Part shown: positions 379-17,962 of the stretch, piece after piece
Numbering within the stretch: the first letter of the stretch is position 1
How the letters are laid out: each line of letters opens with the position of its first letter
Assembly: GCA_002450255.1 (NCBI GenBank)
Contig: DJYW01000079.1
Span: 1 to 22,286 of the forward strand
Source of the DNA: Gammaproteobacteria bacterium UBA6968
Lineage (GTDB): Bacteria > Pseudomonadota > Gammaproteobacteria > Pseudomonadales > Azotimanducaceae
DNA: 22,286 nucleotides
Reading direction: 5' to 3'
Position numbers and translations under genes: made by a program
Notes under the pieces: model-generated
The model's database searches: none
Seen by the model: only the letters and a program-made list of their open reading frames with translations
Told to the model about the DNA's origin: nothing

Positions 379-1431
379 TTATGCGGCTTTCCGAGTTCTT
401 AGGGATTCGCTCAGTTTACGCAACATGCTTTCGGTCTCGTCCCAGCCAACGCACGCATCCGTAATGGAAACCCCGTAAGCCAAATCGCCCGCATCCCCCA
501 TATCTTGACGCCCTTCATTGAGGTGGCTCTCTATCATCACGCCGGTAATGGATTGATTACCGGCTTTGATTTGTTGCCCAACTGCTTCCAAGACCTCGTT
601 TTGCAGACGATGGTCTTTTTTAGAATTGGCGTGTGAGCAATCGACCATAATCGATGGCTGCTGGTGTACCTTCGCTAAAGCCCTCTCGCATTCGGCAATA
701 TGCGCTTCGCTGTAGTTAGGACCATTTGATCCGCCGCGCAGCACGACGTGCACGTGATCATTGCCGGTAGTGTGAATCACGCTAACCTGGCCTGCGGGAT
801 TGATGCCTAAAAAACGGTGTGGGCTGATTGCAGATTGCAGGGCATTGATCGCCACGCCGAGTGAGCCGTCGGTGCCGTTTTTGAAGCCCACCGCGCAGCT
901 TAGACCCGATGCCATTTCGCGATGCGTTTGAGATTCGGTGGTCCGCGCGCCGATGGCTGACCATGAGATCAAGTCTTGCATGTACTGTGGGGTGATAGGG
1001 TCGAGGGCCTCAGTTGCGATAGGCAGGCCGAGCTCGGTGATGTCCAGCAGAAGCTTTCTCGCGATCCGCAAGCCTTCGTGCACCTTGAAACTGTCGTCCA
1101 TGAAGGGATCGTTGATCAAGCCTTTCCAACCTACAGTGCTGCGCGGTTTTTCGAAATAAGCGCGCATCACGCAGAATAATTTGTCATCCAACTCGCCCGC
1201 TAACGCACTCAGCTTCGTCGCGTATTCCAATGCGGCTTGCGGGTCGTGGATTGAACAAGGGCCAACCACGACTAGCAGCCGCGGATCTCGACGCGCGACG
1301 ATTTCCTGGACGGTCTTTCGGTAGGCTTTCACAGCCTCACCGATGGCGCCGTCTACTGGCAACTCAGCTTTTAATTGTTCAGGAGTGATAAGCACTTGAT
1401 GTGTCTCAATATTAATATTCTCTAGTTCCAC
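379..1431 (-). CDS. aroF: 3-deoxy-7-phosphoheptulonate (DAHP) synthase, class I, AroF-like
   Basis: Condenses phosphoenolpyruvate with erythrose 4-phosphate, the first step of the shikimate pathway. The GTG at 1431-1429 is preferred because GGAG lies 8 nt upstream and it gives 350 aa, close to E. coli AroG and AroF. An upstream in-frame TTG (1470-1468) would add 13 residues and has no clear Shine-Dalgarno sequence. From the GTG, the metal ligands are Cys59 (GPCSIHD), His267 (DCSHANS), Glu301 (IESH) and Asp325 (ITDACVGW), almost the numbering of E. coli AroG. Stretches such as ATEALDP, HRF.GIN.AGQV and SQTHREMASGLS resemble the Tyr-sensitive isozyme AroF more than AroG or AroH. The feedback specificity is inferred and would need an assay. 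The gene stands alone on the minus strand behind a probable Phe/Tyr attenuator (1486-1651). Confidence 0.95.
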   Translation of the reverse strand: MELENINIETHQVLITPEQLKAELPVDGAIGEAVKAYRKTVQEIVARRDPRLLVVVGPCSIHDPQAALEYATKLSALAGELDDKLFCVMRAYFEKPRSTVGWKGLINDPFMDDSFKVHEGLRIARKLLLDITELGLPIATEALDPITPQYMQDLISWSAIGARTTESQTHREMASGLSCAVGFKNGTDGSLGVAINALQSAISPHRFLGINPAGQVSVIHTTGNDHVHVVLRGGSNGPNYSEAHIAECERALAKVHQQPSIMVDCSHANSKKDHRLQNEVLEAVGQQIKAGNQSITGVMIESHLNEGRQDMGDAGDLAYGVSITDACVGWDETESMLRKLSESLRTRKAA

Positions 1432-1485
1432 GTTAGCCGCTCCAACTGGTAATTCGCCCCAAGATTGCAATGCTAAAAAATGACC

Positions 1486-1518
1486 AAAAAAAAACCCGTT
1501 GGCGCCGCCTAACGGGTT
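1486..1518 (-). terminator. Intrinsic terminator in the aroF leader (attenuator terminator)
   Basis: Read on the minus strand, AACCCGTT (1518-1511), a 10-nt loop and AACGGGTT (1500-1493) form a perfect 8-bp stem. It runs into nine consecutive T residues (1494-1486), the form of a Rho-independent terminator. It lies upstream of the aroF start in the sense direction of aroF, with no gene ending just before it except the short leader frame at 1562-1651. Its position and the leader frame make it a likely attenuator. The attenuation role is inferred; the hairpin and T-run are seen directly. Confidence 0.8.
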
Positions 1519-1523
1519 TATCC

Positions 1524-1558
1524 GAAGGCAGTCATCTGCCTTCCGTAATAAAGAAGGC
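1524..1558 (-). promoter_or_regulatory. Mutually exclusive hairpins between leader frame and terminator
   Basis: On the minus strand, GAAGGCAG (1543-1536) can pair with CTGCCTTC (1531-1524) across a 4-nt loop, giving 8 bp. The same GAAGGC (1543-1538) can instead pair with GCCTTC (1558-1553), which begins 3 nt after the leader stop codon. A ribosome stalled on the Phe/Tyr block or sitting at the stop would cover GCCTTC and favour the first hairpin. Separately, GTTGGCGC inside the leader frame (1596-1589) is complementary over 8 bases to GCGCCAAC (1505-1498) in the loop and 3' arm of the terminator, so it could act as an antiterminator. Pairings are read directly; the switching order is inference. 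Confidence 0.5.
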
Positions 1559-1561
1559 TAT

Positions 1562-1651
1562 TTATGTAAAGAAGTAAAAGAAAGCCTCGCGCCAACCGCA
1601 GTCAGACCCAGCAGTGCGCGCCACACTTGCACCGTTTGTCATCGTGGACAT
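1562..1651 (-). CDS. Candidate Phe/Tyr leader peptide of the aroF attenuator
   Basis: A 29-codon frame on the minus strand runs from ATG (1651-1649) to TAA (1564-1562). A second in-frame ATG at 1642-1640 would give 26 aa. It ends …REAFFYFFT, with five aromatic codons in a row (TTC TTT TAC TTC TTT, 1582-1568) just before the stop. This is the pattern of leader peptides such as PheL that sense charged tRNA-Phe or tRNA-Tyr through ribosome stalling. The stop codon is followed by alternative hairpins and then an intrinsic terminator ahead of aroF. A weakness is that no clear Shine-Dalgarno sequence precedes either ATG. The single Trp codon earlier in the frame seems incidental. Function is inferred from codon content and position. 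Confidence 0.6.
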   Translation of the reverse strand: MSTMTNGASVARTAGSDCGWREAFFYFFT

Positions 1652-1670
1652 TACGGCGGTGTGGGAGGCT

Positions 1671-1699
1671 CTAAAACAACCCAAGTTTGTGTTGGTCAA
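1671..1699 (-). promoter_or_regulatory. Possible aroF leader promoter
   Basis: On the minus strand TTGACC (1699-1694) matches the sigma-70 -35 box at five of six positions. A 17-nt spacer is followed by TTTTAG (1676-1671), a weak -10 match at three of six. The spacing is ideal and it lies just upstream of the leader frame, but the -10 is poor and the resulting leader 5' end would be short. The rest of 1700-1861 shows no gene or clear structure. Confidence 0.25.
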
Positions 1700-1861
1700 A
1701 TTCATAGCGGCCGATAGTACTCATAGAGATTTAAAAAGCAATGACTACGTGACTCAGAGGTAGCACAAAACCCGCGACAAGAGTCCGCGTATTCATACGT
1801 CGGGCTGCTATGGCTCATCTATGATTCGGATATGGTTCATAGTTGACTGCGTTCGGATGAG

Positions 1862-4800
1862 CTATACGACTAAATGAAGTGTCGCTGAACCGGTAAAAAA
1901 AAGCGCGGTACGAACTTCGGCGCAACTTGCTAACTCCGGTAAATAACCTGCTATCTCGCGGTAGCGATCTAACTGTTGCTGGTACCGTTGTGCTTCATGT
2001 TGCAAAAAACCTCGCAGCGGCTGCCCTTCGTCTGGCGTGCTCGTTTTGTAGTCGATAATCCAGCAGATATTGTCTTCAATGAAGCATCGATCGAGCACGC
2101 TGGTTGCAAACCCGCGCGCATCAGCGTGAGTTAGTGACCATTCGCAGCGTTCGAATGTTTTCGGCTGCAGGATCCATTGGCCGGTCTCGCTTTGCCAGGT
2201 TGAATGGATGTGCGTCCGGGCTTGTTCGCAAAGCAGCCTAGCCTGCTCTGCTGCAATCGGTAATTGCCTAGACCATTGGGCGAGACGCTGATCCAGCTGA
2301 CTAAGTTCTGCAGGATGCTCGTGGCCTAGCCAGGCCAGCGTGCGATGTACGAGATTGCCTAATGCCACCTCTAGGCGGGCACCAATAAGATCGGTTTTTG
2401 TAGCGCGTGCGGGTGCCGCAATAGCGGCTGGTGCATAAGCCGGTGGTTGCCAGCGATAGTCTGCGGGCAGGCGGGACAAAGTCTGTTTTGCAGGGATTTG
2501 CGCGTATGCCAAAGCGGTTGTTTCCGGTACGTCAGAGATCGGCGCGAATTCAGCCTCGCTAAAAAATAGGCGAGCGAGGCCCCGCGGTGGCGGGGATAGA
2601 GCCGCAGGCGCAGGTACCTCTGGACAGATAACACAACTGAAGCTTAACCAGAGGCTTTTGATTGCACGGGTACAAGCCACGTATAACAAACGTTTGTGTT
2701 CATTCGCGCTGCGTATGGCGTTTTCGTGTTTGAGCCATTGGTGAACAGGGTCACCACGCACGCCGGCAAGCAGCGTGTCATTCTGGCCTTCCAGACTGGT
2801 CTGCCAAAGCAGAAGATCAGAGCCGTCCCCGCGCGGATCGCGCTCCGTAAATGGGACGATAACGTGGTCGAACTGGAGCCCCTTCGACCGGTGAATGGTC
2901 ATGACGTCTAGTCTGCCGGTGGTTTCGTTGGCAGTAGTGGGTTGGGCATATAAGCGTCTAGTCGCGCGGTTAACATAGTCGATGTCGTAGCCGCGCGGCC
3001 CGTGCTGATCCAGAGATTGCAGCCAGTTAAAACAATTTTGTAATGCTTCAGCTGAATACGCGTCCATACCGCCAAGGCGAAACCAAAATCCTTCTATCAC
3101 TTCGCGCAAGCTCACTTCGTACAAGCGAGTATGGGCCCAGTTCAATGCTGCATTGAGTCTTGCGAGCCTGGGGTCTGTCGCGGCTATAGCTGGCAAGATC
3201 GCTTGCAAATCGGCGGTGTCCTGGAATTGCTCCAACTGTGTTAGCGGCAGGCCGATGAGTGGGCTGCGTAACAGGCTGAACCACGCCAATCTGTCTAACG
3301 GCGTAAGCAACACCTTAAGCAGCGTTATGAGGTCGCGTACCTCAGGAAGCTCATGGAGCGGATCGATATCGGTTGCCTGCCAGGTGATCTCGGCGTTTTG
3401 CAAAGCCCTTAACAAAGGCGGTAGGTGGTTTCTCGCCCGGCAAAGCACACCGATGTGGCAGTCGGGTTCTGTGCTTCTCAGCGACCGAATGTGATCGACG
3501 ATGCCGCGAATCTCTGCCTCAGTTGCGGTGAAAGCCAGACAGCTTACGGTTGCAGACCCGGCATGAATGGCGCTTGCCGGGGCAAAGGGGATGGCCCCCA
3601 GATGCGTCATGCCGCCTTGGCCAAACAGTTTGGAAAACAGCTCGTTATTCCATTGGACCAAAGTTTTCTGTGAGCGGAAATTTGCTGTTAACGTCAAAGG
3701 AGTTAATGGCAAATCCCCCAACCCTTGTGTCCGACATCGACCAAATAGCGAGACTTCTGCATCACGAAACCGATAAATCGATTGCATCGGATCGCCGACC
3801 GCAAAAAATGTGTTGGCTGCATCCCCCGACCAGTTTTCGGTTAACAGCTGAAAGAACCGGTACTGGCTTTGCGAAGTATCTTGGAATTCGTCCACCAGAA
3901 TATGGCGTATTCGATAATCCCAATGCAGCGCGATGTCAGTCGGCCCTGCTTCGTCGCGCAAACTGCGTGCCGCGCGCATGAGGATGCCGGTGAAATCGAT
4001 TTGCCTAGCCGCGTACATAACGCTCTCTAGCTCGGCTGCAGCCAGTGACAGTGTTAGAGCAACGCAGAGCAAGTTGTCGGCAGCAGTATCCTCGAGTTGC
4101 TTAGGCGGTAGTTTTAGCAACATAGCGAAGTCATCAGCTAGCTCGCGGGCATGGAGATCCTGCAGCCAAGCGAGCACCGTCGTTTTCAGCGTCTTGTCAG
4201 CAAATGCTTCGTGTTCGCGTCGCGTTAGCGTCTTCCGAAATTGTCCTTTTGCAGTAAGCAGCAGCGGGGCAATATCGGAGAGCTCCGGTTGGCGGCCAGT
4301 TTGTTCGGCGAGCCAAATCAGTTTAGCTTGATCTGCTTCGGTTAGGGCTTCAATTAGCGGTGTAGTAATTGCCTGATGCAACTCGGCAATGGCGGTTTCA
4401 ATCAGTGTGATTATGGGGAAGGCGGGTTGCGCTGCCAGACCACTTAGGTCGTTAGTTAGGCCTAGCCACTGATCTCGTTTGCTAAGCATTCTGACCAACA
4501 AGGCGCTCGCCGTTTGTGGATTGTTGTCTACGATTCGCAAGAACTCCGCGATAATGCCAGCGGTTTCATCATCGGCGTATAATCGCCCCAGCAGTTGCTG
4601 CGCTGCAGCAGCGTAGTATTCTTCAGGTTCCTCCGCGATGTCCATTCCGGCAGCTGTCGCCGCAGACGGGAGTTGAGTAGCGAGATCCAGAGCGAAACTA
4701 TCGATGGTTTGGATTTTGAGTCGGTATGGGGTTAGCTCGAGTTGCCAGCCCAGTTTTTGGTCGCGTTCGCGAATAGCCCTTGCTAGCGGCGTGTCTCCCT

Positions 4801-5017
4801 GCAGCGTCAGCAAAACTCGTGAGCGCATTTCTTGTGCAGCCTTGCGGGTAAAGGTAATGGCAAGAATTTCTTCTGGGCGAGCGACGTATTGCAGCAGGGT
4901 TAAATAGCGCTCAACAAGTAAAGTGGTTTTGCCCGACCCGGCAGGCGCCTGCACGATAAAAGAAGCGTTAGGGTTTAGCGCTTCGTCTCTTTGGGCTTGA
5001 TCTGGGGGTGGCTGCAT
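1862..5017 (-). CDS. AddA-like UvrD/RecB-family helicase-nuclease
   Basis: A 1051-aa DNA repair helicase with a fused nuclease, expected to unwind and resect double-strand breaks with the AddB-like partner encoded just upstream. Superfamily 1 motifs are all visible: Walker A APAGSGKTT (24-32), motif Ia ITFTRKAA, motif II DEFQDT (from Asp376), motif III VGDPMQSIYRFR, motif IV NFRSQ, motif V TIHRSKGLQF (His709) and motif VI YVACTRA (779-785). The C-terminus carries a RecB-type PD-(D/E)xK nuclease with Asp976 in LDR, Asp989 and Lys991 in DYKTS, then a QxxxY element (QHEAQRYQQQ). The size is somewhat below RecB and AddA. Its ATG overlaps the TAA of the upstream gene by one base (TAATG), so translational coupling is likely. 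No RecC/RecD-like gene is present. The symbol addA is not given because homology is to the family, not to a characterised orthologue. Confidence 0.9.
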   Translation of the reverse strand: MQPPPDQAQRDEALNPNASFIVQAPAGSGKTTLLVERYLTLLQYVARPEEILAITFTRKAAQEMRSRVLLTLQGDTPLARAIRERDQKLGWQLELTPYRLKIQTIDSFALDLATQLPSAATAAGMDIAEEPEEYYAAAAQQLLGRLYADDETAGIIAEFLRIVDNNPQTASALLVRMLSKRDQWLGLTNDLSGLAAQPAFPIITLIETAIAELHQAITTPLIEALTEADQAKLIWLAEQTGRQPELSDIAPLLLTAKGQFRKTLTRREHEAFADKTLKTTVLAWLQDLHARELADDFAMLLKLPPKQLEDTAADNLLCVALTLSLAAAELESVMYAARQIDFTGILMRAARSLRDEAGPTDIALHWDYRIRHILVDEFQDTSQSQYRFFQLLTENWSGDAANTFFAVGDPMQSIYRFRDAEVSLFGRCRTQGLGDLPLTPLTLTANFRSQKTLVQWNNELFSKLFGQGGMTHLGAIPFAPASAIHAGSATVSCLAFTATEAEIRGIVDHIRSLRSTEPDCHIGVLCRARNHLPPLLRALQNAEITWQATDIDPLHELPEVRDLITLLKVLLTPLDRLAWFSLLRSPLIGLPLTQLEQFQDTADLQAILPAIAATDPRLARLNAALNWAHTRLYEVSLREVIEGFWFRLGGMDAYSAEALQNCFNWLQSLDQHGPRGYDIDYVNRATRRLYAQPTTANETTGRLDVMTIHRSKGLQFDHVIVPFTERDPRGDGSDLLLWQTSLEGQNDTLLAGVRGDPVHQWLKHENAIRSANEHKRLLYVACTRAIKSLWLSFSCVICPEVPAPAALSPPPRGLARLFFSEAEFAPISDVPETTALAYAQIPAKQTLSRLPADYRWQPPAYAPAAIAAPARATKTDLIGARLEVALGNLVHRTLAWLGHEHPAELSQLDQRLAQWSRQLPIAAEQARLLCEQARTHIHSTWQSETGQWILQPKTFERCEWSLTHADARGFATSVLDRCFIEDNICWIIDYKTSTPDEGQPLRGFLQHEAQRYQQQLDRYREIAGYLPELASCAEVRTALFFTGSATLHLVV

Positions 5018-7815
5018 TAGTCGATCGCGCTGTCAAAAGGGATGGGCTCGGAGAACGCGCTTGTTTCTGTAGTGACGTTAGATTCTTCCATGTTTGTAGC
5101 GGTTTGTATGCGACAGAAACTATGTAAATGACAGTATCGGCAAGCCGTTGGCGCAGGATTTACCGTCGCGTTGCCTTCTCGTAACTCGTTGGCCAGAGAC
5201 TCCAACTGCTCGCGCCAAATTGACTTTTGTTGGGTCCAGTTTGACTGCGGATTTTTAATCGTTATCCCGCGGGCTCTACCCTCGACGATGCTAGTGCCTG
5301 GATCGACGATGCCGGTCAGTTTCACGTCGTCAGACTTTAGTTTTGCGAAGCATACGCCGTGTATGGCATCTGCGGTGAGACTGTATATGGCCAGCTGGGG
5401 CGCTAACAGTGGTGTTTGTGTCGCAGCGCTCAGATTGACGTTGCCGGTTTTGTAGTCGATGACCACTTCGCCACTTGCAGTCAAATCTATTCGATCAAGG
5501 CGTAGATTAAACTGCAAACCAGCTATTTCCAGACTTGTTTTTTGTTCCACTGCTTTGATTTCAAAAGGCTGGCGTTGCGCCTCCAGTTGTAACCATGTTG
5601 CGATAATTGTGATTAGCCGCTCAACCTCATTTTCGATGAAGCGCTCTGGTAAAGAACCGCTGCGAGAGAGGACGTGATGGCACAGGGCGCCAATTTTGGT
5701 GCTATCTAATTTGACTAGCGCCGCCTGAGTTGTGTTTGGCGTGGCCAGTGCCTGCAGAATAGCGTGTAGTTGAGTGCCACGCTCCAGTGGGTCAAGAAAA
5801 TCGAATGGTGTCCGCGGGTCACGCAGGTTCAGACGATGTTTGGCAAAACTGCGCATTGGGCATAGCGCTTGATCCTCCAGCCGCCCGATGCCGCCGCTCA
5901 CAGATTGCTCATCTAGCGCACTGCCGTAATCGTCCACATAGCGCTCCAGGACGGTCGATTGCCGCACGCGGTACGGGTGGAGCTGTTCGGGGAGTATGGG
6001 CGGATGAAGCGTTAGCTCGGGGATAGAGTCCCGTTCTTGCAGGGCTCCTAATAGCAGCGGCGAGGGGGCGATTGCCTCGTTATTCTCTGTATGCGTGAAA
6101 CTAATCCGGGTTGTTTCTGCCATAGACAGCCAGTGTCGAATTTGGCGTTCTGCAAAGGCTAAGTCGGCTGTCGCGTCCGCTCGAGGCAGACCGTGCCGTA
6201 TCGCGAGTTGTTTGGGGATAAACGGATTTTTGGCGGCGACTTGTGGATAGCTATCTTCACCAAGACCACACACCCATAAATGGCTGCATGATAATCCTGT
6301 TGTCTCTAATGCGCCTAGAACGCGAACTTGGCCAGCTGGCCGCTCGGGGGCGAACATCTGTTGGCCGATTATCAAATCGAAATACTCCAATGCCTGCGAC
6401 AAAGCAAAGCGCTGTTCAGTATGGTCATCGTAGCGCTCTTGTTCTGCGGTGCTCTGCAGGCTCCCTAAAACCCTTTCAGCGGCCTGAAACTGCACCGAAT
6501 TCAGTGCAGGCGAGCCTGGCCAACCCGCAGCTCGCAACAGCTGCATAATGGTTTCCGCCCATGCGCTTAGCGTCGCCTCTACTGGTAGACTTTGCGCGCT
6601 TTCCAATGTAGCGGTGATTGCGTCACGACTGGTGTTTTGCTCCAGGCCTTTCGACTTTTGATCCTCAGGCAGGCTTAGGTCTTCGTTCCGGCTTATGGAA
6701 AGGGCGCGGCCAAAAGCATGCTGCAATGAAATGGTTTGGCGATACGTAGTCGGCCAGCCGCTTTCCGTTTGGAACAAAGCAGCCAGTTCGCGATAGTTGA
6801 GAAAGGGCGAATGCGCGAGCGCGCTTGCGCGAGCTTGCCCGCGCGGATGGACGCACCAATCCAATAGCATCCGCGCGTGTTGCCACACAGGTTGCAGGCC
6901 TAGACTGACGCCGCCGGAAAGATCAAAGGTGTCCGTTAGGCTACCTCGCTCGGGGTCGAAAATTGCCGCAAACTGGCGCTGTGTGCTGGCGTAGTGCTGA
7001 GCCAATTGCGGCATCACGACGATACAAGTGGCGTCCGGCTCGGTGTTCAACGTGGCTTTAATCCAGTCAGCCGCGGCAGCGACTTCTTCCTCTAAGCAGC
7101 CATAACCGATAAGTGCCGTGTTGTCTGCGCATTGCCTTGATGAGTTTGGCAATCCACCCGAATGGTGTTCTGCGGAGCTTTCCTGAAATTCCAAATAATA
7201 TTCATAAAAATCAACGATTTCTTTATGATTATTAAAAATTTTTATAGGTTTTGATTCGCTCGCCATCGATAGATAGCTCAGTTCCGCTGGTGCGAGGTGT
7301 TCAAAGGCAATCAATAGCAATGGCTGTGCGCTCGAGAACCTGTGGCTGCTCAGATATTCGGGAATCGCCGGGCCAAGCAAGACGTTTTGCCCAAGGCTTG
7401 TCTGAGCGCGCGCGCACCAGTCGCGAAACGGCAGTAGGTCGTTTCTGGCAAAGGCATCATCGTCCCAATCGATTCTATAACGTAGACATAGGTTCCAGGC
7501 ATCAAGAGCCGAAATGGTCTGCGCTCGCTGATCTGGTGTAGCGGCTGCGTAAAGTGCCGCTAACATCTCGCTACGATCAACAATCCGAAGTTTGGTGAAA
7601 TTTTGCTCCTCGAACCTGCACCATTCCTGGTTTAACCATTTGTTGAGGCTGAGGCTTTGCAATGTGGCCCAGGTACGTTTCCCACTATTGCGCATCGCTT
7701 CGTTGTAAGCCGTCGCATATTCCCTGGGTAGCCGCTCATTGGGAGTCAGCCAAATATGCGAATGCGCATGCGCCAGAAGATTGTCGGTAAGTTGGGCGAA
7801 GGCTCTGTAAGGCAT
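5017..7815 (-). CDS. AddB-like PD-(D/E)xK nuclease (probable DNA repair protein)
   Basis: A 932-aa partner of the downstream AddA-like helicase. The N-terminal half resembles an inactivated helicase: there is no Walker A lysine motif, but helicase-like blocks such as LWVCGLGEDSYP remain. The C-terminus holds a RecB-type nuclease with DYKTG (Asp787, Lys789) followed by a Q.A.YS-type element. Four cysteines fit the iron-sulfur 'staple' of AddB nucleases: Cys652 (ALCPMRSF) before the nuclease core and Cys892, Cys895 and Cys901 (CRYCHLHSFC) after it. The protein matches the short AddB-like repair proteins of beta- and gammaproteobacteria that sit beside a RecB-like helicase. The ATG start has GAGGA about 13 nt upstream, rather distant. 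The stretch coding for residues about 188-208 is strikingly AT-rich. Chi recognition cannot be judged from sequence. Confidence 0.85.
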   Translation of the reverse strand: MPYRAFAQLTDNLLAHAHSHIWLTPNERLPREYATAYNEAMRNSGKRTWATLQSLSLNKWLNQEWCRFEEQNFTKLRIVDRSEMLAALYAAATPDQRAQTISALDAWNLCLRYRIDWDDDAFARNDLLPFRDWCARAQTSLGQNVLLGPAIPEYLSSHRFSSAQPLLLIAFEHLAPAELSYLSMASESKPIKIFNNHKEIVDFYEYYLEFQESSAEHHSGGLPNSSRQCADNTALIGYGCLEEEVAAAADWIKATLNTEPDATCIVVMPQLAQHYASTQRQFAAIFDPERGSLTDTFDLSGGVSLGLQPVWQHARMLLDWCVHPRGQARASALAHSPFLNYRELAALFQTESGWPTTYRQTISLQHAFGRALSISRNEDLSLPEDQKSKGLEQNTSRDAITATLESAQSLPVEATLSAWAETIMQLLRAAGWPGSPALNSVQFQAAERVLGSLQSTAEQERYDDHTEQRFALSQALEYFDLIIGQQMFAPERPAGQVRVLGALETTGLSCSHLWVCGLGEDSYPQVAAKNPFIPKQLAIRHGLPRADATADLAFAERQIRHWLSMAETTRISFTHTENNEAIAPSPLLLGALQERDSIPELTLHPPILPEQLHPYRVRQSTVLERYVDDYGSALDEQSVSGGIGRLEDQALCPMRSFAKHRLNLRDPRTPFDFLDPLERGTQLHAILQALATPNTTQAALVKLDSTKIGALCHHVLSRSGSLPERFIENEVERLITIIATWLQLEAQRQPFEIKAVEQKTSLEIAGLQFNLRLDRIDLTASGEVVIDYKTGNVNLSAATQTPLLAPQLAIYSLTADAIHGVCFAKLKSDDVKLTGIVDPGTSIVEGRARGITIKNPQSNWTQQKSIWREQLESLANELREGNATVNPAPTACRYCHLHSFCRIQTATNMEESNVTTETSAFSEPIPFDSAID

Positions 7816-10708: not shown

Positions 10709-11683
10709 ATGAAATTACAACAACTTCGCTATATCTGGGAGGTCGCTAACCACGACCTAAACGTTTCCGCTACCGCGCAAACGCTATTTACTTCGCAGCC
10801 GGGTGTCAGCAAACAGATTCGTCTGCTAGAAGACGAACTTAACGTTGAGATATTTGTCCGCAGCGGCAAACATCTGACTGAAATCACCGAGGTAGGCCAA
10901 TCAATAATTGAAGTCGCGGGCGAAATACTCAGCCGCACTCGCGCAATCAAACAAATGGCCCAGGAATATTCCGAGGAGCGCGAGGGAGACCTATCAATCG
11001 CCACGACACACACCCAAGCAAGATATGCACTACCAAGCGTCATAAATGAGTTTAGAACGAAGTATCCTCACGTCAATTTGCATATGAGCCAGGGATCGCC
11101 AGAGCAAATCGCTGAGCTTGCTGATTCTGGTGAAGTGGACTTCGCGATCGCGACCGAAGGACTGGATTTGTTCAATAATCTGATCATGATGCCCTGCTAT
11201 CAATGGAACCGATGTGTGGTCGTTCCCAAGGGGCACCCACTCGCCAATGTTTCCGAATTAACACTCGAAGATGTAGCCCGTTATCCAATTGTGACCTATG
11301 TCTTCGGATTTACCGGACGCTCAAAGCTCGACGACGCATTCCGCGACGCGAAGCTGCTACCCAATGTCGTGTTTACCGCCACTGATACTGATGTCATCAA
11401 GACTTACGTCAAACTAGGCCTGGGCGTGGGTATCGTTGCGCAAATGGCCTACGAGCAAGAGCACGATAGCGATCTGGTTTCCATACCTGCTGATCACCTC
11501 TTTGAACCTAGCGTGACTCATATTGGGTTTAGGCGCGGTACGTTTCTACGTGGTTATATGTACGAGTTTATTCGTTTGTTCGCGTCGCATTTGCAACCGG
11601 AACTGGTACGCGAAGCGGTGGGATGTTCGACTCGTAAAGATCGAGAACGGTTGTTCGCGGAAACGGCGTTGCCGTCGCGTTAG
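10709..11683 (+). CDS. cysB: LysR-type transcriptional regulator CysB
   Basis: The master activator of sulfate assimilation, responding to N-acetylserine or O-acetylserine and opposed by sulfide or thiosulfate in characterised bacteria. The 324-aa length matches the family. The N-terminal winged helix-turn-helix spans about residues 1-60 (MKLQQLRYIWEV…SQPGVSKQIRLLEDELN). The inducer domain keeps the E. coli ligand residues in register: Thr100, Thr102 and Gln103 (TTHTQ), Thr149 (AIATE) and Thr202 (GFTGRS). This makes true CysB far more likely than the paralogue Cbl or another LysR protein. It converges on cysH and its CxxC neighbour, placing regulator and probable target side by side. The start ATG has only a modest Shine-Dalgarno match (AAAGG). 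Confidence 0.96.
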   Translation: MKLQQLRYIWEVANHDLNVSATAQTLFTSQPGVSKQIRLLEDELNVEIFVRSGKHLTEITEVGQSIIEVAGEILSRTRAIKQMAQEYSEEREGDLSIATTHTQARYALPSVINEFRTKYPHVNLHMSQGSPEQIAELADSGEVDFAIATEGLDLFNNLIMMPCYQWNRCVVVPKGHPLANVSELTLEDVARYPIVTYVFGFTGRSKLDDAFRDAKLLPNVVFTATDTDVIKTYVKLGLGVGIVAQMAYEQEHDSDLVSIPADHLFEPSVTHIGFRRGTFLRGYMYEFIRLFASHLQPELVREAVGCSTRKDRERLFAETALPSR

Positions 11684-11894
11684 CACTGGGCTTGCTTGGG
11701 ACCTGGAAGTCTCTGATCGAAGATAGAGCGTCTGTTAGCGTGTCCTACAAACAGGTCATGCTATTGGACGGCGCTTTTAGACGGTGCTTTTCAATTGGGT
11801 TGCGAGAGTCGACTCAATAGATGCACAAAAAAACATCTGCTTAAGTCTGGTCCATGTGTGGATCGAGTATTCCAGTACGCCCTATTGAATACTG

Positions 11895-12299
11895 TTAGAT
11901 GAAATCCAACTCCGGGTGAGCGTGCAGTAGCGCGCTTGCCTCGGCAGTTTCTTCCCGGCGGGCTTGAAGTTGGGGATGGCTGGATTTTTGCGTTCGGGCA
12001 AGGGATGGAAAGACCGCTTTCAAAAAACGGAAAAAAACCGTGTAAACCACCCGTTTCCCGTTTTCGGTCACAACGAAAAAGGGGGCTACAGTTACACCGA
12101 GTTCTGACGCGAGTCGTTGTCCGGACGAGTGTGGATCTCGCTCGTCGGCGATGAGTACTTCATCTATGACATGCTCGATGCCAAGTGAGCGCACGCGTGC
12201 TTCGACGTCGGCACACTTGCCGCATAACTCTCCGTTCGCGAGATATTTTTTTACCCACTGGATATGTGGTCGGTTTGCTTTGAGTTGCTGGCTAGACAT
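11895..12299 (-). CDS. Small CxxC thioredoxin/glutaredoxin-fold-like protein linked to cysH
   Basis: A 134-aa protein with a probable redox site CGKC (Cys26, Cys29) after a short N-terminal segment ending WVKKYLANGEL. About 44 residues later comes GVTVAPFFVV, whose proline (Pro73) is in the position of the cis-proline of thioredoxin-fold proteins. The order, CxxC then helix then VAP before a strand, supports a glutaredoxin-like fold, though it is not a textbook thioredoxin (no WCGPC). The start ATG 12299 lies 17 nt after the cysH stop with GAGA nearby. The frame stays open upstream into cysH, so a GTG at 12371 (158 aa) is possible but less likely. Tandem arrangement suggests it is made with CysH and could supply its reducing power or maintain its iron-sulfur centre. 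That role is inference; no such function is shown in the sequence. Confidence 0.7.
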   Translation of the reverse strand: MSSQQLKANRPHIQWVKKYLANGELCGKCADVEARVRSLGIEHVIDEVLIADERDPHSSGQRLASELGVTVAPFFVVTENGKRVVYTVFFRFLKAVFPSLARTQKSSHPQLQARREETAEASALLHAHPELDFI

Positions 12300-12316
12300 G
12301 CGTTTCTCGACGGCGG

Positions 12317-13075
12317 TTAAGTTTGCTGGATCGTGCTGACAGGTTCCAGGTTCTGTGCATGTAACCCGCACTCCTTAATGGTGCTTTCTTCCCACCACCA
12401 GCGTCCCGCCCGTTCATGTTCATGGGGCGCAACCGGTCGCGTGCAAGGCTGGCAGCCGATGGAAACGAAACCCTGATTATGCAGCGGGTTGAACGGGACT
12501 TGGTTTGACCGGATGTATTGCCACACGTCGTTACTTGTCCAGTCAGCAAGCAGATTAAACTTCACGAGTTCTCGCTGATCATTAGAGAACGCTAGGTCCA
12601 CTTGCTCGATGGGGACATTGCCCCGGGTCACACTCTGATCGCGCCGTTGGCCGGTTATCCATGCGTCTAAGCGATCTAACTTTCGGCGGAGTGGAGCGAT
12701 TTTGCGAACGGCGCAGCATTCTGCATGACCTTCTTTGTAAAAACTGAACAAGCCTTTCTCGCGTACCAGGCTTTCAACCGCCGATGCTTCAGGCATGACC
12801 ACCTCTATGGCAATGCCATAATGGTCGCGAACGGCTTCGAAATAGGCATAGGTCTCAGGGTGCAGGCGAGCGGTATCCAGTGAAAAAACTGCGCACTTCA
12901 AACCGATTTGATGCATTAGATCAACGAGGATAATGTCTTCCGCGCCGCTGAACGAGATGGCTATTTTATCGTGGTCGAATCGCTGCAGTGCGTCGCTAAG
13001 GTAGTCTTGGGTTGTGCCAGTGAGTGTGGCCAACCGCTCATTTGCGCTGGTTTCGATTGCTAAGTTTGTGGTCAT
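12317..13075 (-). CDS. cysH: Assimilatory adenylylsulfate (APS) reductase, Fe-S type
   Basis: Reduces activated sulfate to sulfite in cysteine biosynthesis. The 252-aa protein has the PP-loop nucleotide site SFSGAED (41-47). It also has the paired cysteines of the 4Fe-4S APS reductases: Cys120-Cys121 (ECCAVRK) and Cys208/Cys211 (GCQPCTRPV). The catalytic cysteine is Cys236 in KECGLH. PAPS reductases such as E. coli CysH lack the CC and CxxC pairs, so this is the APS-using, Pseudomonas/plant-like type and would not need APS kinase for this step. The remaining pathway genes are outside the window. It is divergent from thrH (308-bp gap) and is followed 17 nt later by the CxxC gene. CysB control is likely from family knowledge; the upstream DNA is AT-rich, but I cannot define a CysB site. 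Confidence 0.95.
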   Translation of the reverse strand: MTTNLAIETSANERLATLTGTTQDYLSDALQRFDHDKIAISFSGAEDIILVDLMHQIGLKCAVFSLDTARLHPETYAYFEAVRDHYGIAIEVVMPEASAVESLVREKGLFSFYKEGHAECCAVRKIAPLRRKLDRLDAWITGQRRDQSVTRGNVPIEQVDLAFSNDQRELVKFNLLADWTSNDVWQYIRSNQVPFNPLHNQGFVSIGCQPCTRPVAPHEHERAGRWWWEESTIKECGLHAQNLEPVSTIQQT

Positions 13076-14316: not shown

Positions 14317-15192
14317 ATGAGTATGGGAGCGCGATTTAGAGCAGCGCTGGCGGCAGAAAAACCGTTGCAAATTCCGGGCACGATTAATGCGTATACCGCG
14401 CTCATGGCCCAGAGCGTGGGCTATCAAGCGATTTATTTGTCCGGTGGTGGAGTCGCTAACGCGTCGTACGGTTTGCCTGATTTAGGTATGACCTCGATGA
14501 ACGATGTTCTTGCAGACGTCCGGCGTATCACTGCGGCGGTTGATCTACCGTTGTTGGTCGACATCGATACTGGTTGGGGTGGTGCATTCAATATAGCGCG
14601 CACGGTTCGCGAGATGACTGCAGCCGGTGCGGCGGCCGTGCACATCGAGGATCAAGTGGCGCAAAAACGTTGTGGCCATCGCCCGAACAAAGCCATTGTT
14701 AGCATCACTGAGATGGAAGATCGTATTAAGGCAGCTGTTGACGCTAAAACCGACTCAGAATTCGTGGTCATGGCGCGGACCGATGCCTTGGCGGTTGATG
14801 GTATGGATGCCGTGGTCGAACGTGCCGGTCGCTTCGCCGAGGCAGGAGCAGACGCGATTTTTGCGGAAGCCATGATCGAGATTGGTTCGTACGCGCCAAT
14901 TGTGTCGGCCGCCAACGTGCCGGTCCTGGCTAATCTGACCGAGTTCGGGCAAACCCCGTTGTATACGCTTGATCAACTCGAGGCAGTGGGTATTAGCATG
15001 GCGCTCTACCCGTTGTCCGCGTTCCGCGCTATGAACAAAGCCGCATTGAATGTTTATCAGACGATTCGCGAGCATGGCACCCAGGCAGATGTAGTTGCGA
15101 CAATGCAAACCCGTATGGAACTTTATGATTTCTTGGGTTATCACGAATACGAGCAAAAGCTGGATCAATTGTTCGCAGAACAACCGGCATAA
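14317..15192 (+). CDS. prpB: 2-methylisocitrate lyase
   Basis: Cleaves 2-methylisocitrate to pyruvate and succinate, the last step of the 2-methylcitrate cycle for propionate breakdown. The 291-aa length matches PrpB. Key blocks are [27 protein letters not shown] with magnesium ligands Asp82 and Asp84, and KRCGHRPNK with catalytic Cys119. KRCGHR distinguishes this enzyme and isocitrate lyases from carboxyPEP mutase relatives. The ATG at 14317 is preceded by GGGGA at 7 nt, a good ribosome binding site. A second in-frame ATG at codon 3 is less well placed. It is the first gene of the prpB-prpC-prpD series. Confidence 0.95.
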
Positions 15193-15200
15193 CGTTTAGA

Positions 15201-15231
15201 GTCCCGCTGTGGCTATGCAGCCAGCGGAGAC
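15201..15231 (+). promoter_or_regulatory. Hairpin between prpB and prpC
   Basis: CCGCTG (15204-15209) pairs with CAGCGG (15222-15227). After a 2-nt bulge, GCT pairs with AGC around an ATGC loop, and outer GTC/GAC may close the base. No T-run follows, so it does not look like a terminator. It could protect the prpB 3' end or mark an RNA processing site, both inferred. Confidence 0.4.
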
Positions 15232-15308
15232 GAGTACCAGTCCGACTGTTGCGGTAACTTGCCAAAGCGTCGGTCTTCATTGCTAAGTGCGAGGCACAGG
15301 AGAGGGAT

Positions 15309-16433
15309 ATGGTGGATAAAAAATTAGGTGGCGCCGGATTGCGGGGCCAAAGTGCGGGGTCAACCGCGCTCTGTACCGTGGGTCAATCAGGCACTGGCCT
15401 TACTTATCGCGGCTATGACATCACTGATCTCGCCGAGAACACAACTTTCGAGGAAGTAGCCTATCTGATCTTTTACGGCGAGTTGCCTAATACTGATCAA
15501 TTGGCAGACTACCACACCACCTTGCGCGGTAATCGAGGCCTGCCCGCCGCTTTGAAAGAAGTTTTAGAGCGTATCCCTGCCGGCGCGCACCCGATGGATG
15601 TCATGCGGACGGGTTGTTCAATGCTGGGCAACTTGGAGCCAGAGGGCGATTTCGATAATCAGCAGCACATAGCGGACCGTTTGCTTGGCGTATTGCCCTC
15701 CATCATTAACTACTGGTATCGGTTTAGTCACGAAGGCGTTCGCATTGAAACTGAAACCGATGCTCCGAATATCGCCGGGCACTTTCTGCAGACCTTATTG
15801 GGTGAAGCACCTAGCGAGTTACATCAGCGGGTTATGGATGTCTCACTCATTTTATATGCTGAACACGAGTTCAACGCGTCGACTTTCACGGCACGCGTTT
15901 GTGCATCGACGTTATCGGATATGCATTCGTGCATCACTGGAGCAATTGGTTCGTTGCGCGGTCCACTGCACGGTGGCGCAAACGAAGCCGCGATGGAGTT
16001 GATCGAAAAGTTTGATTCCCCTCAGGCAGCGATCGAAGGGGTGACCGGAATGCTCGAGCGCAAAGACAAAATTATGGGTTTTGGACATGCGATCTATCGC
16101 ACTTCCGATCCGCGTAACGTCATTATCAAAGGCTGGGCTGAAAAGCTGGCAGAAGAGGTGGGTGATACGCGCCTTTACCCAGTCTCTTGCGCCATTGAGA
16201 AATTGCTGTGGGATGAGAAAGAGCTTTTCGCAAACGCCGACTTCTTCCACGCCTCAACCTACAACGCGATGGGTATTCCAACTAAGTTGTTCACGCCAAT
16301 ATTCGTTTGCTCCAGAGCATCCGGGTGGGCGGCCCACGTCATGGAGCAGCGTACGAATAATCGGATTATTCGGCCAAGCGCAGACTACGTCGGCTCGGAG
16401 CCACGCAAGGTCACTCCGATCGCTGATCGATAA
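15309..16433 (+). CDS. prpC: 2-methylcitrate synthase
   Basis: Condenses propionyl-CoA with oxaloacetate. The 374-aa length and blocks such as GLTYRGYDI, GPLHGGANE, GFGHAIYR and NADFFHAS fit the PrpC branch of the citrate synthase family. Expected catalytic residues are His221, His260 and Asp311. The C-terminal GWAAHVMEQR…NRIIRPSADYVG closely follows E. coli PrpC and supports methylcitrate synthase over the longer housekeeping citrate synthase GltA. The ATG has AGGAGAGGG directly upstream. It follows prpB after 116 bp that hold a hairpin and is followed by prpD after 83 bp. Some citrate synthase activity is common in this subfamily. Confidence 0.93.
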   Translation: MVDKKLGGAGLRGQSAGSTALCTVGQSGTGLTYRGYDITDLAENTTFEEVAYLIFYGELPNTDQLADYHTTLRGNRGLPAALKEVLERIPAGAHPMDVMRTGCSMLGNLEPEGDFDNQQHIADRLLGVLPSIINYWYRFSHEGVRIETETDAPNIAGHFLQTLLGEAPSELHQRVMDVSLILYAEHEFNASTFTARVCASTLSDMHSCITGAIGSLRGPLHGGANEAAMELIEKFDSPQAAIEGVTGMLERKDKIMGFGHAIYRTSDPRNVIIKGWAEKLAEEVGDTRLYPVSCAIEKLLWDEKELFANADFFHASTYNAMGIPTKLFTPIFVCSRASGWAAHVMEQRTNNRIIRPSADYVGSEPRKVTPIADR

Positions 16434-16481
16434 GCGACCCATCTTTTAACCACCGGGCACTATACCCACCGCAAAATCTAT

Positions 16482-16497
16482 GCGGCCGAGAGGCCGC
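16482..16497 (+). promoter_or_regulatory. Strong hairpin just upstream of prpD
   Basis: GCGGCC-GAGA-GGCCGC is a perfect 6-bp all-GC stem closed by a GNRA-type GAGA loop, a very stable combination in RNA. It ends 19 nt before the prpD GTG and only a few bases before its GAGGAG ribosome binding site. There is no T-run. It could affect translation of prpD or the stability of the prpC-prpD junction. Confidence 0.55.
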
Positions 16498-16516
16498 TTA
16501 GCCAGAGGAGTTTTAC

Positions 16517-17962
16517 GTGAGCGCAAATGTTGAAACGAATGTTCGACCCGATCCAGATGCAGAATTGGTAGCCATTGCCGATTACGTCACCAAGATCGAT
16601 ATCACCAGTGCAGAAGCGTTAGACACTGCACGCAATTGTTTGATGGATACTCTGGGTTGCGGATTGCTCGCTCAGCGCTTTCCAGAGTGCACCAAGCACC
16701 TGGGTCCAATTGTTACCGGTACCGTCGTGCCAAATGGCGCCAGAGTGCCGGGGACGCAGTTTGAACTAGATCCAGTGAAAGCCGCTTGGGATATCGGCTG
16801 CATGATTCGCTGGCTCGACTTTAACGACACTTGGTTGGCTGCGGAATGGGGCCATCCTTCGGATAATCTCGGCGGTATTTTGGCTGTCGCCGATTACTTA
16901 AGCCGCGTCAATGTGGCGGCAGGCAAAGCACCGCTTACTATGCAGGACGTTTTAGTGGCCATGGTTAAAGCGCATGAAATTCAGGGCTGTTTGGCTTTGG
17001 AGAATAGTTTTAACCGGGTTGGTTTGGATCACGTCCTGTTGGTGCGCGTTGCTTCTACAGCGGTCGTGACAGCCCTGCTTGGTGGCACTCATTCGCAAAT
17101 CGTCGATGCGCTGTCGCATGCCTGGGTCGACGGTTCTAGCTTGCGTACTTATCGGCATGCACCGAACGCCGGACCGCGCAAGTCCTGGGCGGCTGGCGAT
17201 GCCACATCGAGGGCGGTTCGTCTGGCGATGTTAGTAATGAAGGGCGAGATGGGTTATCCCAGTGCTTTAACCGCGCCCACCTGGGGTTTTTACGACGTAT
17301 CGTTTAAAGGCAACGCATTTAAATTCCAACGCCCATACGGCAGCTATGTCATGGAGAGTGTGCTCTTCAAAATCTCCTTTCCTGCCGAATTTCATGCGCA
17401 AACAGCGGTGGAAGCTGCGGTCATCTTGCATCCAGAAGTTGCACACCGACTCGATGATATCGAGAAGATCGTTATGACCACTCATGAGTCAGCAATTCGC
17501 ATTATCAGTAAGACAGGTGAATTGAATAATCCGGCAGACCGAGACCATTGTTTGCAATATATGGCGGCAATCGGTTTGCTGAAGGGCAATTTGATCGCCG
17601 AAGATTATGAGGACGATGTGGCGGCAGACCCTCGCGTTGACCAGGTTCGTGACTTGATGGAAGTGGTTGAAGATGAGCGTTACAGCCGCGAATACCATGA
17701 GCCCGACAAGCGTTCTATCGCCAACGCAATCCAAGTATTTTTCAAAGACGGCACCAGCACGGCTAAAGTTGAGGTGGAGTATCCGATTGGTCACCGCCGC
17801 CGTCGCGAGGAAGGTATTCCTGTATTGGAAGACAAGTTCATGCGTAACCTGCAAGTGCGTTTTCCTGCTGCACGAGCCGAGAAGATATTCGACTTGTGTA
17901 AAAATGCGGATCAATTGAATGCGACGCCGGTCAATGAATTCATGGATTTGTTAGTCATCTAG
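16517..17962 (+). CDS. prpD: 2-methylcitrate dehydratase, MmgE/PrpD family
   Basis: Dehydrates 2-methylcitrate to 2-methylaconitate (481 aa, cofactor-free family). Family features include [14 protein letters not shown] near the N-terminus, [21 protein letters not shown] and GGILAVADY in the active-site region, the [22 protein letters not shown] block and [14 protein letters not shown]. The start is GTG 16517 with an ideal GAGGAG at 6 nt. It completes the set with PrpB and PrpC. The pathway version therefore uses PrpD rather than AcnD plus PrpF, at least at this locus. Rehydration to 2-methylisocitrate would rely on a general aconitase encoded elsewhere (inference from E. coli/Salmonella). No prpE or prpR follows. 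Confidence 0.94.

Follow-up and report, generated by a model that had tools for sequence, protein, structure and literature searches.

DAHP synthase is the gate to phenylalanine, tyrosine and tryptophan, and in Escherichia coli its three isoenzymes are placed under the control of TyrR and TrpR. The pheL-pheA and pheST attenuators of this organism combine a Phe-rich leader with a terminator and are concerned with Phe only. The attenuator of the his operon has a six-segment topology with alternating pairings. In classical attenuators, the choice of read-through is held to be made kinetically. Proteobacterial attenuators are reportedly the subject of papers by Panina et al. in 2001 and by Vitreschak et al. 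in 2004. The pheL-pheA and pheST systems are described as known in PMC11802643, which also covers part of the isoenzyme, TyrR and TrpR control of E. coli.

Attenuators located in front of a DAHP synthase gene are already known, for example aroR-aroF of Corynebacterium glutamicum (Neshat et al. 2014), whose leader contains Phe-Tyr-Phe and responds to Phe, not to Tyr (PMC11802643, PMC4046766). Further attenuators were predicted before aroF-type genes of Vibrio and Shewanella (PMC1173090, PMC2659441), and a motif named uORFC-13-1 precedes aroF in Acholeplasma (PMC8632094). Leader-peptide mRNAs that are themselves leaderless have been described for trpL of Sinorhizobium meliloti (PMC7298713) and in Streptomyces lividans (PMC8079986).

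The window studied here is the whole stretch of 22,286 nucleotides of contig DJYW01000079.1 from Gammaproteobacteria bacterium UBA6968. Attenuation at its aroF locus is very likely, and there is good reason for confidence that the region is a ribosome-mediated transcription attenuator sensing aromatic tRNA charging and controlling aroF, the one class I DAHP synthase detected in the genome. Like aroR-aroF, for which a response to Phe limitation is reported, this locus has an aromatic-codon leader before DAHP synthase; the two are likened by description, the C. glutamicum system being that of an actinobacterium, with Phe-Tyr-Phe and no Trp named in the accounts available. The Acholeplasma, Vibrio and Shewanella predictions also stand before DAHP synthase, in other organisms, and the available accounts of them do not mention Trp codons. 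The S. meliloti and S. lividans leaders belong to other pathways and other bacterial classes, and leaderlessness in the window is deduced from the promoter position. With pheL-pheA and pheST the window shares the Phe-rich leader and the terminator; those systems differ in reading Phe only and in the genes controlled. The pairing chain resembles that of the his attenuator as commonly taught (0:A, B:C and terminator when off; A:B and C:D when on), from which the window differs in sequence, amino acids and gene, and in that its segment D overlaps the terminator arm and loop. New features are the three amino acids, the probable leaderless start, the spread of the element, the his-like segment chain and the reading of the P15 RNA presented below.

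Layout of the aroF leader region

A previous sequence-only reading had proposed amino-acid attenuation before the DAHP synthase gene, which is borne out by comparison with relatives. The parts of the element are present in the sequence as follows.

1736..1741, minus strand: promoter -35 hexamer TTGCTT (pattern match)
1714..1719, minus strand: promoter -10 hexamer TACTAT, 8 nt upstream of ATG 1705 (comparison with relatives)
1562..1705, minus strand: leader peptide of 47 codons plus stop TAA, MNLTNTNLGCFRASHTAVMSTMTNGASVARTAGSDCGWREAFFYFFT (frame and relatives)
1565..1594, minus strand: control-codon stretch, with TGG (Trp) at 1594-1592 and Phe-Phe-Tyr-Phe-Phe at 1582-1568, then Thr, then the stop
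1584..1588, minus strand: segment 0 (GAGGC), partner of A if no ribosome lies over segment 0 (folding)
1553..1558, minus strand: segment A (GCCTTC), 3 nt past the stop codon (folding)
1536..1543, minus strand: segment B, GAAGGCAG (folding)
1524..1531, minus strand: segment C, CTGCCTTC (folding)
1507..1515, minus strand: segment D, CCGTTAGGC, antiterminator partner of C, overlapping the terminator 5' arm (folding and swap test)
1486..1518, minus strand: intrinsic terminator, AACCCGTT at 1518-1511 with AACGGGTT at 1500-1493, T run at 1494-1486 (folding)
1440..1443, minus strand: Shine-Dalgarno-like GGAG of aroF (sequence)
379..1431, minus strand: aroF-type class I DAHP synthase, likely start GTG 1431 (TIGR00034 aroFGH, 510 bits)

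The whole attenuator region occupies 1741-1486 of the minus strand, between an addA-like gene of the same strand, which ends at 1862, and the DAHP synthase gene. Its downstream end had been placed correctly at 1486; its upstream end, formerly set at 1651, lies 90 nt further because both the conserved start at 1705 and the promoter at 1741-1714 are found in relatives. The frame ending in Phe-Phe-Tyr-Phe-Phe-Thr-stop is likewise retained, and the 29 codons counted from ATG 1651 turn out to be the 3' part of the 47-codon frame. The 29-codon leader was rejected, the start conserved in relatives being located 18 codons upstream. The leader stop codon is found at 1564-1562, followed by GCCTTC at 1558-1553 and GAAGGC at 1543-1538. 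The terminator reads AACCCGTT-AGGCGGCGCC-AACGGGTT from 1518 to 1493 and carries the nine T residues already noticed, at 1494-1486. The start of the gene with a ribosome binding site of its own was also confirmed, as GTG 1431 behind GGAG 1443-1440.

As in attenuators of the trp and his type, the region appears to hold a short frame with control codons for the products of the pathway near its end. The tail of the window leader is W-R-E-A-F-F-Y-F-F-T, and those of relatives include W-P-G-F-F-Y-M-F-A, W-R-G-F-T-Y-F-F-V-T and W-Q-G-F-F-T-Y-F-Y-M. The Trp/Phe/Tyr run is kept at the leader end and the remaining leader sequence is divergent: over 13 non-redundant leaders, 75 of 156 codons are aromatic among the last 12, versus 15 of 317 elsewhere. 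In one leader (L102), an N in the run leaves a codon unread, and no Tyr is seen there. When the upstream region was shuffled 5000 times, a frame ending with five aromatic codons in seven arose on 20 occasions. The control codons had first been read as Phe and Tyr, which was right and incomplete, a Trp codon being conserved as well. Sensing of Phe and Tyr by the window leader is likely; that of Trp is probable, although RNA pairing could instead account for the retention of TGG.

The promoter TTGCTT-N16-TACTAT (1741-1714) lies directly upstream of the leader ATG. In all 13 non-redundant leaders, a promoter-like TTGCnn-N16-TAnnAT lies upstream with its end 7-10 nt from the start, and no GGAG or other Shine-Dalgarno-like site is seen by eye between promoter and leader start. 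For this count, the L112 leader was taken to start at a GTG that lies in frame two codons upstream of its ATG, and the automatic promoter picks of L094, L097 and L104 (5 nt) gave way to TTGCTT-N16-TACTAT or TAGTAT at a distance of 8 nt from the ATG, from a pattern match in L094 and by eye in the two others. The pattern TTG[CA][AT][AT]-N15-17-TANNAT matches all 11 attenuator loci scanned, of 16 known, and has a single match on both strands of the window, at 1741-1714. Since the conserved promoter ends 7-10 nt before the leader start, the attenuator transcript is probably leaderless and would begin at or beside ATG 1705. A transcript start downstream of 1582, named in the sequence-only reading as a finding that would tell against attenuation, is made improbable by the position of this conserved promoter upstream of the leader ATG and by the single pattern match in the window. 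Outside the genus, an automatic scan gave a promoter at the leader start with a score of at least 8 of 12 in L161, L167 and L177 and of 5-7 of 12 in L163, L165, L168, L171 and L175; it gave none in L162 and L170, nor, within the genus, in L148. A simple consensus scan of the window missed both the promoter, which with 7 of 12 matches falls below its limit, and the terminator, whose loop exceeds the permitted length.

The aroF product is a class I DAHP synthase, with the Tyr-sensitive AroF structures 6agl and 6agm as nearest solved relatives, and the only match of its class in its own genome, a draft of 187 contigs that is 94% complete. The Trp repressor profile PF01371 matches in none of 40 genomes of the genus, the E. 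coli and Bacillus subtilis controls being positive. The TyrR-type helix-turn-helix profile PF18024 found nothing in the own genome; it matches in 21 of the 40 genus genomes, 3 of them over the cut-off, and is not specific because it also matches in 5 of 14 control genomes. These absences fit attenuation as a main transcriptional control and are no proof of it.

Directly upstream of aroF, the window region 1862-7815 (minus strand) contains an addA/recB-like helicase gene, below curated cut-offs, and a TIGR03623 gene for a probable DNA repair protein. A methylcitrate-cycle cluster is located at 14317-17962 (plus strand), with prpB and prpD recognized by profile match and a middle frame that is presumably citrate-synthase-like; cysB (plus strand) lies near a cysH-type reductase gene (minus strand) at 10709-13075.

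Predicted folding states of the leader transcript

The alternative hairpins of the sequence-only reading were recovered as mutually exclusive predicted folds of segments A-D and the terminator. The ribosome was modelled as masked sequence in 15 element-bearing sequences, L099 being left out. With A masked, corresponding to a ribosome at the stop codon, B:C and the terminator form in all 15. With A free and the terminator 3' arm unfinished, A:B and C:D dominate in 12 of 15, the exceptions being L083, L092 and L095. Minimum-free-energy folds of the 13 non-redundant sequences gave the expected stop state in all 13 and the stall state in 10. In the complete transcript at equilibrium, the terminator wins in 15/15 even with A free, and antitermination must therefore be kinetic. 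The ribosome-free state is mixed: A:B is preferred in 8 of 15 sequences, and the combination of 0:A and B:C is dominant in just four, the window (L001), L083, L092 and L103. In these models, an antiterminator mutually exclusive with the terminator would be chosen by the position of the ribosome.

This antiterminator is, by folding, C:D, which joins 1531-1522 with 1515-1507. Two other candidates had been put forward. The GCCTTC/GAAGGC pairing corresponds to the A:B helix, which is not the antiterminator and comes into play one step before it, releasing C. The pairing of GTTGGCGC (1596-1589) with GCGCCAAC (1505-1498) was rejected in this role, since it turns up only in the fold without ribosome, at a stage when the terminator is still unfinished, and is weakly supported by the swap test.

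The 75-nt and 60-nt folds taken from the 3' part were more stable than any of 200 shuffles (z -4.1 and -5.8), and the 170-nt fold was more stable than all but 2 of 200 (z -2.7). The covariation score of B:C plus terminator was reached by 0 of 500 shuffles, and its four pairs with double-sided changes by 32 of 500. No double-sided changes are found for A:B and C:D in the alignment, which is expected since each segment serves two partners, yet is also a lack of support. When segments were swapped between sequences, C:D pairing was better for native than for exchanged partners (57 of 20000 permutations gave an equally low value), and the helix between the W region and the terminator loop had weak support (260); 0:A (3362), A:B (1335) and B:C (2390) were without significance. 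Kinship of the rows inflates all of these shuffle and swap tests. All 14 aligned rows share an unchanged TGGC, which in several folds forms pairs with A or the terminator loop.

We infer the start site, the response to each amino acid and the kinetic decision on read-through in the following scheme, in which ribosome footprints are taken from general background. Transcription would start at or next to ATG 1705. When Trp-, Phe- and Tyr-tRNA are charged, the ribosome would reach the stop codon and cover A, so that B:C could pair and the terminator form. A stall on Trp, Phe or Tyr codons would cover segment 0 and leave A free; A:B would then pair and release C, which would take D within the terminator 5' arm, and the polymerase would read through into aroF. 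A ribosome-free transcript of the window should adopt the 0:A plus B:C fold and terminate. Because an aromatic-codon leader and a switchable stop signal precede the gene, the enzyme is most likely made only when Trp, Phe and Tyr run short.

Distribution of the element and its relation to P15

Regions upstream of the homologous gene were read in the same genus and beyond. The element is found at 16 loci (L001, L005, L006, L083, L092-L097, L099, L102-L104, L112 and L113), among which L005 is also L098, L006 is also L100, and L094, L097 and L104 are near-identical. A terminator is located between leader and gene in all 16, and conservation is seen only in the leader tail, A-D and the terminator. 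The strongest sign that the observation is more than chance is the presence of the same arrangement in relatives with otherwise dissimilar leaders. Relatives keeping the terminator without the aromatic frame had been named as counting against attenuation; 15 of the 16 loci keep the frame and L099 does not. Upstream of its DAHP synthase, L099 retains the RNA segments and terminator with a broken leader frame, by decay or assembly error.

A covariance model, R1, was built from 14 aligned rows. Strong matches (at least 67 bits) were obtained in 17 of 40 same-genus genomes, 14 of which are model rows; 16 of the 17 matches precede DAHP synthase, and the other (L147, in G026) runs off its contig. 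A weaker match (L148, G027:C185:9385-9490), with a leader ending ..FAWYGFYFLT, stands before DAHP-synthase fragments. Over the order, R1 matches at E 0.01 or better in 21 of 293 genomes, own included. Outside the own genome, 10 of 21 matches lie before DAHP synthase, with leaders containing Trp, Phe and Tyr. The other 11 (L164, L166, L169, L172, L173, L174, L176, L178, L179, L180 and L181) have no DAHP-synthase frame start within 400 nt, look like terminators and were rejected, as were weak matches in the genus (e.g. L149-L154). No convincing leader was found at the 26 best-scoring first-paralogue loci outside family f1 (L183-L208); frames flagged there by script in L188 and L201 have no terminator behind them.

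In a tree built from 48 of the 52 DAHP-synthase proteins found, after removal of 4 short ones, the attenuator label requires 4 changes, compared with a shuffled mean of 14.6. The genus constitutes one supported group, with 14 members having the attenuator, L099 counted in, and 14 without. The promoter is kept at 11 of 13 loci without attenuator, 71-158 nt before the gene, the exceptions being L106 and L107; this agrees with loss of the leader-terminator block. The 11 loci (L002-L004, L082, L085-L087, L089, L090, L101 and L105) retain TTGC..TACCAT with neither leader nor terminator and are natural attenuator-free versions.

A second DAHP-synthase paralogue was also searched, and the regions upstream of its 30 best-scoring loci were read. 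Leaders of a second type were found in 24 of them, and L209, the same locus as L168 above, makes 25; the other five (L234-L238), and also L231, match the first paralogue better. Their tails read Y-F-F-Y-G-Y-W-F-S-Q-R-R-A or F-F-W-W-F-G-Y-G-F-Y-F-S-Q-N-P-G-R-P, and Trp, Phe and Tyr are all present in 25/25. In families f21 and f43, most of the leaders read carry a GGAG-like site ahead of their start, and they do not seem to be leaderless. Odd stops inside second-paralogue genes proved ordinary: in L233 the stop is near the match end, and in L210-L215 the BLAST match is without a stop.

The Rfam family RF00627, 'Pseudomonas sRNA P15', matches 7 of the 12 second-type loci searched with Rfam (L218, L222, L223, L225, L227, L228 and L230), with weaker matches in G075, G081, G140 and G198; in L228, the match runs from the leader aromatic codons to the terminator. 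P15 is found in 14 of 194 genomes of the order, 10 over the cut-off, and in none of 14 control genomes. Each of the 14 is followed on the same strand, at 101-318 nt, by the matched part of a DAHP synthase (places compared by eye). P15 has no match in the window or its genome at its gathering score of 70 bits, and the proposed search of Rfam for a Phe or aromatic leader family drew a blank in the window, where none of 4227 families, leader families and riboswitches included, matches at the gathering score. P15 resembles the window in having the tail of a Trp/Phe/Tyr leader and a terminator before DAHP synthase, and differs in leader sequence and paralogue. One place in G075 (family f37) is matched weakly by both R1 (E 0.0014) and P15 (E 0.0007), and common descent of the two leader types is possible. 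P15 is typed as gene and described as sRNA in Rfam, is listed among the sRNAs detected by Livny et al. (PMC2375449) and was guessed from synteny, in a 2008 paper, to be perhaps a riboswitch (PMC2527527). A description of P15 as an aromatic attenuator was not found in the openly licensed PMC literature. This RNA is probably an attenuator rather than a trans-acting sRNA.

Alternative explanations and significance

The most serious alternative, though an unlikely one, keeps the attenuator and limits its sensing to Phe and Tyr, TGG being retained for the part that TGGC takes in RNA pairing, of segment 0 with A or with the terminator loop. The invariance of TGGC in 14 rows, its pairing with A or the loop and the W region:loop result (260 of 20000) agree with such a role. 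In addition, not every control codon need be sensed, because the Phe-Tyr-Phe leader of C. glutamicum is described as answering Phe and ignoring Tyr (PMC11802643). Against this stands the presence of Trp in the run of all 25 second-type leaders, whose sequence is different, and in other genera of the family (L161, L162, L165 and L170). A far less probable proposal invokes nascent-peptide arrest as in TnaC, a W-x-G motif sensing the free aromatic amino acid in the exit tunnel. This motif does occur in 11 of 13 window-type leaders, and as W-F-G or W-Y-G in second-type leaders of families f20 and f39; the window, however, has W-R-E, leaders ending in G-Y-W-F-S lack it, TGG-nnn-GGC is explained by the pairing of segment 0, and a stall at high amino acid would have the reversed sign for a biosynthetic gene.

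Just as improbable is a metabolite-binding riboswitch or a trans-acting small RNA, despite the gene/sRNA label of P15 in Rfam and the synteny-based guess of a riboswitch in PMC2527527. What is conserved is a short coding frame with switching hairpins, no Rfam riboswitch matches, and all 14 P15 matches are upstream of DAHP synthase and on its strand; an sRNA may still arise from the locus as a by-product. The end of an upstream gene at 1862 on the same strand would suit an ordinary terminator of this addA-like gene, with the aromatic frame as a coincidence, but this reading hardly deserves credit: a conserved promoter separates the gene from the leader, and leader, A-D and terminator are conserved together, an intact frame missing only in L099 of 16 loci. 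Moreover, 12 of 13 upstream regions (up to 420 nt) of loci without the leader have no CGGG-T run, and the one of L090 is 396 nt away.

Attenuation by a leader peptide with Trp, Phe and Tyr codons is the reading retained. On balance, we favour the wider view that one leader integrates the charging of all three aromatic tRNAs and gates shikimate entry, in a device widespread in the order as two leader types on two paralogues, with P15 as the second form and with no Trp repressor found in the genus. On the same view, the element is absent from about half of the sampled loci of the genus, where the promoter is mostly kept, and these are natural attenuator-free counterparts. If this is true, the orphan 'sRNA' family P15, which had appeared in print by 2008, becomes an attenuator with a named target, and relatives that have the same promoter and lack the leader make it possible to study what the device costs and what it is used for. 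With a single class I enzyme found in the cell, one leader that reads all three end products would be a compact arrangement.
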